IMG/VR virus record: IMGVR_UViG_3300025128_000324
Location: 1-24,306 of that record
Origin: a virus
Length of the DNA stretch: 24,306 bases
Direction: 5' to 3' (one strand)
Shown: one piece after another, positions 8,742-22,500 of the stretch
How positions within the stretch are numbered: the stretch's first letter is position 1
Layout: every line of letters starts with the position of its first letter
Position numbers and translations under genes: made by a program
Notes under the pieces: model-generated
Database searches by the model: none
Seen by the model: only the letters and a program-made list of their open reading frames with translations
What the model was told of the DNA's origin: nothing

Positions 8742-10271
8742 ATGATAGAACAATTTTCAAACATATTTGACGGACTCAGGGCAGCTTACGGCACATATAA
8801 AATAAATGGCCGGGACACAAAGGGCAAAGCCACTGGCAAAGCTACCGTCGTAAAGGAATCACGGACCACGGAGACCTGGGAAGCGCATCTATCCGGGCAG
8901 CAGTCCATCGGTATTATCCCCATCAACGAAGAGAACGAATGCAAATGGGGCTGTATTGATATCGACGAGTACAACTTCGATCATCAGAAGCTACTCAAAC
9001 AATTACAAAACGCAAAATTACCTTTGGTGGTGTGCCGCAGTAAGTCTGGCGGTGCTCACGTATTTTTATTTACAGCAGAGTTTATACCAGCCAAAGACAT
9101 GCAACAGACGCTAAAACGTCTTGCAGTGTCTCTGGGCTACGGTTCTTGTGAGATCTTTCCGAAACAAGTGGTGCTGCATCTGGAGCGTGGTGATGTCGGG
9201 AACTTTCTCAACACACCTTACTTTGATCACGAGAATGGATTGCGTTATGCCTTTAAGGCAGACGGGACTGCCGCCACGATAGAAGAGTTTTTTGAGTTGC
9301 ACGAGCAGAACGTGCAAACCCATGAGCAGGTGCTGGCACTTACAGTAGAAGAGGACCCGGACTTGCCGTTAAAGGACGGACCACCTTGTCTTCAGATGCT
9401 ATGCCGGGACGGTATACCGGAAGGGGCTAGAAACAACGGGCTGTTCAATCTTGGAGTCTACTTACGCAAAGCAAACCCTGACGGTTGGGAATCAGACATC
9501 CTTGAACACAACATGAAGTTCATACACCCGCCGTTGCCTTTGGGTGAGGTCAACACAGTAGCCAAGCAGCTAGAGAGAAAAGACTACGCTTACAAGTGTT
9601 CTGACGCACCAATCAACTCGGTATGCAACCGAGAGCTTTGCATGACTAGGAAGTTTGGTATTGACGGTGTAGTCACTGGGGTACAGATAGCTAATCTTAG
9701 AAAGTACAACAGTACACCACCGGTCTGGTTCCTTGACGTGATGGGTCAGCCATTGGAGATGCAGACAGATGATTTGTTGAATCAAGCAGCGTTTCAAAAA
9801 GCTTGTGTAGATCAACTTAACTTCCTGCCCAGAACGATCAAAAAAGATATGTGGGAGACCCGCATCAACGGGTTGCTCGGTGAGATGTCAGATACAGAAG
9901 GCAGCATTATTGAAGTGTCTGAGGATGTCAGTGTCAATGGTCAGTTTAACGACCATTTAGAAGATTTCTGCACAGGGCATCAAGCGGCAGAAGAAAGAGA
10001 GCAAATACTGCTCAAGCGGCCTTGGACCGACGCAGAGAGAGGCGAGACCTACTTCAGATTGAAAGATTTGGAATCGCATTTGATTAAAGCGAACTTCAAG
10101 CATTTCAAGACACACCAGATTGCACAGCGGTTACGGGATCTTAATGGGCACAGTTCGTTGTTGAAAATACAAGGCAAGCAAATCAGACTGTGGCGGATAC
10201 CTTCGTTTGACATGGACAAATCTCAATTGCAAACACCCCAGTTCACAAAAGAAGAAGAGATACCTTTTTAA
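8742..10271 (+). CDS. Archaeo-eukaryotic-type primase (TOTE-system primase-like), 509 aa
   Basis: The N-terminal 190 residues match the AEP superfamily pattern: catalytic pair in WGCIDIDEYNFD (Asp73 and Asp75), the SKSGGAH motif ending in His106, and LERGDVGNFLNTPYF (148-161). The central part (PPCLQMLCRDGIPEGARNNGLF, 214-235) resembles a PriCT-like domain. It is followed by Cys286, Cys295 and Cys300 in CSDAPINSVCNRELC, a possible metal site. The family makes primers de novo; phage members prime replication. Cofactor use or polymerase activity cannot be judged here. The ATG at 8742 has no Shine-Dalgarno site and follows a 72-bp gap containing a short GGCC/GGCC stem. The stop overlaps the next ATG by one base (TAATG). 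Confidence 0.85.
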   Translation: MIEQFSNIFDGLRAAYGTYKINGRDTKGKATGKATVVKESRTTETWEAHLSGQQSIGIIPINEENECKWGCIDIDEYNFDHQKLLKQLQNAKLPLVVCRSKSGGAHVFLFTAEFIPAKDMQQTLKRLAVSLGYGSCEIFPKQVVLHLERGDVGNFLNTPYFDHENGLRYAFKADGTAATIEEFFELHEQNVQTHEQVLALTVEEDPDLPLKDGPPCLQMLCRDGIPEGARNNGLFNLGVYLRKANPDGWESDILEHNMKFIHPPLPLGEVNTVAKQLERKDYAYKCSDAPINSVCNRELCMTRKFGIDGVVTGVQIANLRKYNSTPPVWFLDVMGQPLEMQTDDLLNQAAFQKACVDQLNFLPRTIKKDMWETRINGLLGEMSDTEGSIIEVSEDVSVNGQFNDHLEDFCTGHQAAEEREQILLKRPWTDAERGETYFRLKDLESHLIKANFKHFKTHQIAQRLRDLNGHSSLLKIQGKQIRLWRIPSFDMDKSQLQTPQFTKEEEIPF

Positions 10272-17090: not shown

Positions 17091-17257
17091 TAGTTCTTCT
17101 CCTTTTTAGATTTGGTTGCGGGTCTATCCAAGATCGCCATCTTCAAGATTGTGTCTTGGTCTTTCTTGACTTGTTCGACATCAGCCAGCAACTGCTGCCA
17201 CTGGCTCAAAAATTCTTCTACCTGTTCTTCGGGCAATGTGAGCTTGATTTCGATCAT
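17090..17257 (-). CDS. Hypothetical helical protein, 55 aa, first gene of the minus-strand operon
   Basis: The sequence MIEIKLTLPEEQVEEFLSQWQQLLADVEQVKKDQDTILKMAIL is one long amphipathic helix after a short strand, with a Lys-rich tail. No family recognised. I chose ATG 17257, preceded by GGAACAAA, over an upstream ATG at 17299; the extra 14 residues (LYVPIFPYLKWN...) look like untranslated leader. It sits next to the repeat-bearing intergenic region and should be among the first messages of this operon. Confidence 0.6.
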   Translation of the reverse strand: MIEIKLTLPEEQVEEFLSQWQQLLADVEQVKKDQDTILKMAILDRPATKSKKEKN

Positions 17258-17272
17258 TTTGTTCCATTTAAG

Positions 17273-17288
17273 ATATGGGAATATGGGA
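17273..17288. repeat. Tandem ATATGGGA repeat before the minus-strand operon
   Basis: Two perfect, adjacent copies of ATATGGGA (17273-17280 and 17281-17288) lie in the leader of the minus-strand operon. Further copies occur at 18707-18714 and 19473-19480. A binding site for a regulator is possible. Confidence 0.5.
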
Positions 17289-17289
17289 A

Positions 17290-17316
17290 CGTATAGCATA
17301 GCGCATATGAAAACAA
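17290..17316 (-). promoter_or_regulatory. Candidate promoter of the minus-strand operon
   Basis: On the minus strand TTGTTT (17316-17311) is followed, after 15 nt, by TATACG (17295-17290), which is preceded by TGC as in an extended -10. The short spacer and partial -10 make this tentative. It would give a leader of about 25-30 nt containing the tandem ATATGGGA repeats. Confidence 0.3.
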
Positions 17317-17359
17317 GCGTTTTTTGATTAAATCGCGTATATACATAGTACTTTTTCGG

Positions 17360-17390
17360 AAAAAAATATTTTTTTTAAAAAAGTTTTTTT
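17360..17390. other. AT-only tract (candidate DNA unwinding element or UP element)
   Basis: Thirty-one bases contain a single G and otherwise only long A and T runs (A7, T8, A6, T7). It lies within the 344-bp gene-free divergent region and directly beside the repeat cluster at 17398-17505. AT-rich tracts beside iterons are typical of replication origins; they also occur as UP elements of promoters. Confidence 0.45.
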
Positions 17391-17397
17391 CAAAAGG

Positions 17398-17505
17398 GTG
17401 TCGATAGTGTCGATAGTGTAACCTTCCCTTTAAAAACGGGCGTTTCAAGGGTTACACCAGGGTTACACCACTCAATAATGGTGTAACCTTCTGGCAAAAA
17501 ACGGG
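17398..17505. repeat. Iteron-like repeat cluster in divergent intergenic region
   Basis: Two tandem GTGTCGATA units (17398-17415) run into GTGTAACCTT (17416-17425). Two tandem perfect copies of GGGTTACACCA follow (17449-17459, 17460-17470). TGGTGTAACC (17479-17488) is the exact reverse complement of 17461-17470, giving a 10-bp inverted repeat with an 8-nt loop. A longer unit, GTGTAACCTT, ten bases, ACGGG, occurs at 17416-17440 and 17481-17505, 65 bp apart. In total there are four GGTTACAC half-sites, two in each orientation. This is the layout of an initiator, terminase or repressor binding region. Confidence 0.7.
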
Positions 17506-17564
17506 AAACCCCATTAAGGGCCTAAAATTTTTGGTTTTGTAATAAATTATTTTCTTCTGAAAAG

Positions 17565-17593
17565 TTGTATGTAGAAACGCTGTTTTATAGAAT
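17565..17593 (+). promoter_or_regulatory. Candidate promoter of the small terminase operon, near-leaderless
   Basis: TTGTAT (17565-17570) and TAGAAT (17588-17593, five of six -10 consensus bases) are 17 nt apart. Only 8 nt separate the -10 from ATG 17602, placing the start of transcription at or within about two bases of the start codon. The GGGA just before the ATG is too close to act as a Shine-Dalgarno site. Confidence 0.45.
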
Positions 17594-17601
17594 CTTGGGA
17601 T

Positions 17602-22101: not shown

Positions 22102-22256
22102 ACCTCGAAAACCCACGCCAGTATTAAAAAAGTGAAACTTGCCGGGCCAAGGCACCCGGTCCACCCACCAAAAATTTTTGGGATCGGTCCGAGATCCCCG
22201 GGTATTGAACCGCGAACCGAAAACCGCGCTCCCTGGCACCAGATCCGCGATCCAAG

Positions 22257-22309
22257 AAACGTGCGTCCTGGTCAAAATGACTTCCACGGACGTGAAAAAA
22301 TGACTTCCA
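22257..22309. repeat. Condensed copy of the methyltransferase 3' region
   Basis: AAACGTGCGTCC (22257-22268), TCCTGGTCAAA (22266-22276) and TGACTTCCA (22278-22286) occur in the same order as at 20955-20966, 20999-21009 and 21038-21046. Between them the methyltransferase stop region and the terminator stem are missing. AAAATGACTTCCA is repeated again at 22297-22309. Confidence 0.6.
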
Positions 22310-22397
22310 ACGATGGCCCCCGGGACAAAGTGATATCACCACGGGGCAAGGCCCCCGGTCCGGGTCCCCCGGCCAATTGAGGCTATCCGGACGGCCC

Positions 22398-22418
22398 CGG
22401 CTCGAGATCCGCGAGCCG
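22398..22418. repeat. Perfect 7-bp inverted repeat
   Basis: CGGCTCG and CGAGCCG flank the loop AGATCCG. It is the longest of the stems in the GC-rich part before terL. No T-run follows. Confidence 0.55.
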
Positions 22419-22500
22419 CGATCAGCGCAGGATGGCCCGGCCCGGCGCACCTGTACCGGTGCAACTTTTCCGCAAACAATTACCAAAAAAATAAGAATGG

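Follow-up and report, generated by a model that had tools for sequence, protein, structure and literature searches.

A repeat cluster with a changeable word in a marine phage contig: a probable iteron-type replication origin with the phage's own AEP primase as its putative reader

Short repeated words packed into a gene-free stretch between two divergent genes raise the question of which phage protein reads them, and to what end. One such cluster lies in a 24,306-base virus contig, described as a marine phage and referred to here in its full length as the window, whose genes include an AEP (TOTE-type) primase, UvrD-like and SNF2-like helicases, PolA, and the small and large terminase. The first-pass annotation had named three readings together, a replication origin, a terminase site or an operator. 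That proposal is partly supported, in its origin part, by the comparisons presented here, which rest on sequences and predicted structures, and we put the probability at roughly 80% that these repeats form a replication origin of the iteron type, with the phage's own AEP primase as its reader.

The region at 17255–17601, between the divergent genes, holds six copies of a word of about 8 bp (Table 1), which reads GTGTCGAT in copies 1 and 2 and GTGTAACC in copies 3 to 6. Across the 24.3-kb window, the 8-mer GGTTACAC is found without mismatch at just four places, two per strand and all inside the cluster; at least four copies of any non-AT 8-mer were seen in none of 2000 dinucleotide shuffles of 17255–17601, and no 8-mer with three copies inside 120 bp was found elsewhere in the window. 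Two features of iteron origins are present, namely several short direct repeats within a compact non-coding region and an AT-rich stretch adjoining them, a candidate unwinding element. The tandem repeats listed by the first-pass annotation, GTGTCGATA x2 at 17398–17415 and AGGGTTACACC x2 at 17448–17469, are there, as are its perfect 10-bp inverted repeats (17450–17459 and 17461–17470 against 17479–17488). Its larger unit, recurring at 65-bp spacing, corresponds to a pair of 28-nt segments that are 79% identical (17413–17440 and 17478–17505), but because the second half of that unit, AAAAACGGG, is not conserved in relatives, we do not regard the 65-bp element as a real unit, and the real repeated unit is the word of about 8 bp in its six copies. 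The tract described as 31 bp of AT only also exists, but is interrupted by one G, with pure AT running for 23 bp (17360–17382); a similar tract is seen in near relatives. The spacer has no hairpin potential in the window (z = 0.13), and across relatives this potential varies and is not conserved (mean z = -0.9), although it is strong in a few (L484, z = -8.9; L529, -4.6; L006, -4.2). A search of the region for structured RNA returned no Rfam family, the best matches lying far under the gathering scores.

Table 1. Positions of the cluster, its flanking AT tract and the primase segments in the window
Feature	Position	Strand	Remarks
AT tract	17360..17390	.	single G at 17383; just left of the iterons; candidate unwinding element (inferred)
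Iteron 1, word GTGTCGAT(A)	17398..17406	+	
Iteron 2, word GTGTCGAT(A)	17407..17415	+	9 bp after iteron 1
Iteron 3, word GTGTAACC	17416..17423	+	9 bp after iteron 2
Spacer, 26 bp	17424..17449	.	between iterons 3 and 4
Inverted iteron 4, word GTGTAACC on the minus strand	17450..17459	-	
Inverted iteron 5	17461..17470	-	11 bp after iteron 4
Direct iteron 6, word GTGTAACC	17479..17488	+	
AEP (TOTE-type) primase, inferred word reader	8742..10271	+	phrog_21866 E=7e-102; AEP-TOTE E=1e-14; 7nqe E=3e-10
Predicted C-terminal winged helix, residues 435–487	10044..10202	+	AlphaFold2 models
Beta2-wing-beta3 segment	10146..10223	+	word-linked residues 471, 473, 475, 478, 480, 481, 488, 490, 494

Alignment of the region in related phages, which had been suggested as a check, gave a divided answer: layout and spacing are conserved, but the letters of the word are not, and all copies within a relative's cluster change together. 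The shared layout consists of three direct words 8–9 bp apart, a spacer and two inverted words 10–13 bp apart, and usually ends with one further direct word. Near relatives collected through TerS carry the words GTGTCCCT/GTGTACCC, GTGTGACT/GTGTTACC, GCGGGACC, GTGTTCCA, GCGGTAC and GCGGGAT, and scans for the DNA pattern added phages with words such as TGTCGCGC, TGTCTCAA, TGTAGCAT and GTGTCACA; words differ even between phages whose neighbouring regions are near-identical. A detector built on this architecture (three direct words 8–10 bp apart plus two inverted words 10–13 bp apart) found nothing in 5.0 Mb of shuffled sequence, as against tens of clusters in real loci. The layout persists over deep divergence and despite a change of neighbours (terS, GP88 or primase): the window and many of its relatives have the cluster directly upstream of terS, while phages of the GCGGTAC group keep it before GP88 and carry terS kilobases away. 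The same layout with other words was also noted in six further contigs, mostly near TerS-like or GP88-like genes (L169, L183, L187, L194, L201 and L211).

Cultured phages place the cluster next to the gene of its putative reader. A tblastn search with the window primase led to 25 cultured-phage records, and the cluster stands directly upstream of the primase gene in Kokobel2, PMBT28, PSA28, VLCpiS6a and K21lambda1, and likewise in the Acinetobacter phages SH-Ab 15497, JeffCo, Barton, Bhz20, Bhz9, Ab53 and AbaSI_2; at the DNA level, no match to the window region was found in cultured phages. When six words were counted in eight complete cultured genomes, each genome formed clusters of its own word alone and never of another phage's. 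Seven of the eight have two clusters, the second carrying the same word 20–25 kb from the first, about half a genome away, and in Ab53 a single cluster qualified. Such pairs of same-word clusters mark the enteric-type and Acinetobacter phages (L399, L400, L401, L402, L403, L573 and L574), unlike the long marine contigs checked, which have one; in the parts examined of three of these (L583, L529 and L595), a second cluster was not found. In another record (L405, about 2870–2960) the region upstream of the primase has no cluster and contains, by eye, a tRNA-like sequence in the position that the cluster occupies in relatives. SH-Ab 15497 is described as a Z-genome phage (PMC8342488), Bhz20 at least is annotated with diaminopurine (Z-genome) genes, and the cluster-bearing cultured phages L400, L401 and L573–L575 belong to or resemble this type; in Z-genome phages, words and AT tracts would carry Z in place of A. 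The cumulative GC-skew change that the first-pass annotation expected at an origin gave no support: skew in the window tracks gene orientation, and in the eight cultured genomes its extremes lie mostly near the record ends, none at a cluster. Skew is thus uninformative about the origin in these phages.

The window primase has an AEP catalytic domain (AEP-TOTE, 55.1 bits against a cut-off of 27), and its N-terminal part matches in fold the CRISPR-associated prim-pol (CAPP) 7nqe and also RepB'. For the C-terminus, AlphaFold2 predicts a winged helix made of a strand (435–438), two helices (440–449 and 457–466), a second strand (470–476), a wing and a third strand (479–487). Among the structural matches listed for this predicted domain, most are winged-helix proteins, with modest scores (best Z 4.7).

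Of the 16 window proteins compared, those with enough relatives were scored for columns that separate near relatives with the window's word (window, L010 and L016) from near relatives with other words (L021, L027, L095 and L182). Among the scored proteins, only the primase has a run of such columns, five in number, at residues 480, 481, 488, 490 and 494. A finer contrast is offered by 11 phages whose words differ in a single base, GTGTAAC or GTGTTAC, where position 473 of the primase holds Val in phages with the first word and Leu in those with the second. This is the sole significant column among 241 variable primase columns in the GTGTNAC clade; one further column is disjoint between the words, but is hypervariable. 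In UvrD, PolA, TerS, the RHH protein and two more proteins, no column separates these two words. Outside the window clade, the rule for residue 473 fits all 22 distinct tails, an additional phage group included (Val with GTAAC in 9, Leu with GTTAC in 7, Gln with GGTAC in 4 and Gln with GGGAC in 2), and the two-by-two Fisher test for Val and Leu gives P = 9e-5 when ancestry is ignored. On a primase tree built without the tail, the A/T change in the word occurs at least eight times; the well-supported independent pairs, few as they are, all agree (5/5, P = 0.06). Over 40 pairs, most of them uncultured contigs and with word registers aligned by hand, as in the other covariation tests, word and tail are correlated given the primase body (partial Mantel r = 0.385, P <= 0.0005). 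Column scans of all 40 pairs and of the enteric/soil group do not single out the wing, and deep ancestry dominates them.

The primases of L584 and L586 are 98.5% identical over their first 1376 bases, yet both their words and their tails differ. In L016/L088, the ori block is nearer to that of the window (91/96) than to that of the sister L021 (72/99), and primase codons 471–495 side with the window, whereas the remaining primase and terS side with the sister L021/L090, a pattern that, on this sequence evidence, is a two-site exchange. The window clade itself departs from the rule, since it combines Leu473 and a GTAAC word; there, reading by the wing seems to go through residues 480/481. Of forecasts fixed beforehand, that for L493 was correct; that for L595 was also correct, though its answer had already been glimpsed. 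The covariation supports matching of the word by the DNA-binding domain of the primase, even though one forecast largely failed: L546 has Gln473, but most words in its mixed cluster read GTTAC. The parts examined of three other forecast cases, L516, L517 and L134, contain no cluster, and a supposed cluster in L516/L517 proved to be a coding repeat. Clusters of the same architecture were also noted in phages whose primases are 39–40% identical (L614, L618, L621, L631, L640, L641, L648 and L650), with words such as TGTAAACA, GTATCCA, GTTCTCA and GACTCAA; in an informal comparison of this set, 'QAI' primase tails go with GTAAAC and 'QH' tails with GTATCC.

The main rival to an origin is an operator, alone or alongside an origin role, in which the winged helix of the primase would bind the words and repress or time transcription rather than start replication, acting on its own gene in enteric-type phages and on the divergent terS/early promoters in the window. 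The cluster is suitably placed for this, between divergent genes in the window and ahead of the primase gene in enteric-type phages; a weak promoter-like match (17451–17479, +) overlaps the iterons, and covariation speaks for recognition, not for function. We nevertheless think this reading unlikely, as the layout persists among relatives whose neighbouring genes differ, the putative reader is a primase, and a layout with an AT tract is of origin type; moreover, autoregulation and origin function may coexist, as in iteron plasmids. It is very improbable that the cluster is instead a repressor or immunity operator with a regulator such as the RHH or the 299-aa protein as its reader. RHH proteins do bind direct and inverted repeats of the kind found in this divergent region; the beta-strand of the RHH protein, however, is invariant across words, relatives that retain the cluster lack the 299-aa protein, and no tested protein other than the primase changes along with the word.

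A terminase site (pac/cos), with TerS binding close to the gene that encodes it, would suit the position directly upstream of terS in the window and many relatives, but the N-terminal half of TerS is identical over quite different words, so this reading is not supported. The words are not separated by any TerS column, the GCGGTAC phages have terS at a distance from the cluster, and enteric-type phages carry the cluster before the primase gene; we regard a TerS site as highly improbable. Separately, a GC-rich gene-free module upstream of terL (CCGGGTCCCCCGGCCAATTGAGGCTA, 22141–22450) closely resembles a GC-rich stretch upstream of terS in L029–L060, and would suit a packaging or late-control site better than the iterons do. 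It is scarcely credible that the words have no specific reader and are kept alike by mutation, through replication slippage and quasi-palindrome correction. Slippage could homogenise tandem copies 1 and 2, but one word at two sites 20–25 kb apart, as in the enteric-type phages, argues against a local mutational cause; the word also follows primase residues at least 7 kb away, and the layout is kept over deep divergence.

An iteron origin read by the primase agrees with the kept layout, with the position before the primase gene in cultured phages and with the covariation of word and wing, and the primase wing and the start site seem to fit one another like lock and key. We infer that binding, opening of the AT tract and the start of replication would all take place at the cluster. 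Several primase molecules would attach to the direct and inverted words through their C-terminal winged helices, the conserved recognition helix probably contacting the bases that vary least (..G..AC) and the beta-wing those that vary. Binding would load the primase next to the AT tract; the strands may part there, and the primase domain could then supply the phage helicases (UvrD-like and SNF2-like) and PolA with their first primers. A wider picture, to which we give about even odds, is that of a large family of lytic phages in which the primase would be the origin-binding protein, word and wing would form a fast-changing lock and key, and near-identical co-existing phages would swap two short, distant segments. 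If that is true, specificity swapping is perhaps driven by competition, satellites or origin-targeting defences, and the wing would yield a readable residue-to-base code.

The origins of most environmental phages are unmapped, and the cluster offers a sequence mark by which the likely origin can be recognised in a widespread group of phages with TOTE-type AEPs. The present work names the most likely reader protein and gives explicit residue-to-base predictions, such that the published speculation that winged helices of AEP primases recognise origins becomes testable in cultured phages, diaminopurine ones included. The fast turnover of the word also raises the question of what drives phages to change it. 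We found no description of these clusters in the open literature, most subscription journals lying outside that coverage. Recognition of an origin by a primase is known in kind (P4 alpha, pRN1) and has been speculated for other primases; what appears to be new is the reader, the covariation of word and wing, and its fast turnover.

The alpha protein of P4 is a primase with a C-terminal DNA-binding domain that binds short origin iterons. The window type, with its inferred reader, would resemble it in both respects, but P4 alpha joins a TOPRIM primase to a helicase in one protein, and words of the window type vary between near-identical phages. A P4-type fusion was set aside, as no helicase family was found within the window primase (PHROGs, Pfam), the helicases being separate genes. 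ORF904 of pRN1, with which P4 alpha has been compared, joins an AEP primase, an SF3 helicase and a C-terminal winged helix with a presumed part in origin recognition, the origin being a large stem-loop without iterons (PMC4234260). The window primase shares the AEP domain and, by prediction, the winged helix; its phages conserve iterons rather than a spacer hairpin, and a large conserved stem-loop of the pRN1 type was not found. Kazlauskas et al. speculate that the C-terminal winged helices of PolpTN2-like and PrimQH AEPs recognise the origin, and the passages considered give no cognate DNA words (PMC5862659), whereas words and covarying wing residues are identified for the window family. The primase-polymerase of NrS-1 is a phage AEP with sequence-specific initiation at TTTGGTTA or GTG, the recognition being attributed to its HBD part; the portions of these reports that we draw on describe neither an iteron cluster nor covariation, unlike the window family (PMC8718748, PMC7102993). 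The C-terminal region of NrS-1 (6lrb) is among the structural matches to the predicted winged helix of the window (Z 4.2).

Two systems with unrelated or different initiators also show parallels in their iterons. Those of geminivirus Rep conserve their layout while their sequences, paired with the initiator, differ between close relatives (PMC12548392), much as the layout of the window type is kept while words change; geminiviruses, however, are ssDNA viruses with a rolling-circle Rep, a protein unrelated to the window primase. The mobile element PLE has three iterons at its origin, recognised by RepA, and the ICP1 nuclease Odn puts them under diversifying pressure (PMC8263062). The window cluster also contains a run of three direct iterons, and its word may likewise be under pressure to diversify; the iterons of PLE are longer (about 30 bp) and semi-palindromic and serve a RepA initiator, as against words of about 8 bp with a primase as the inferred reader. 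Among these systems, the window type would be an iteron origin whose reader, judged by covariation, is a stand-alone AEP primase.
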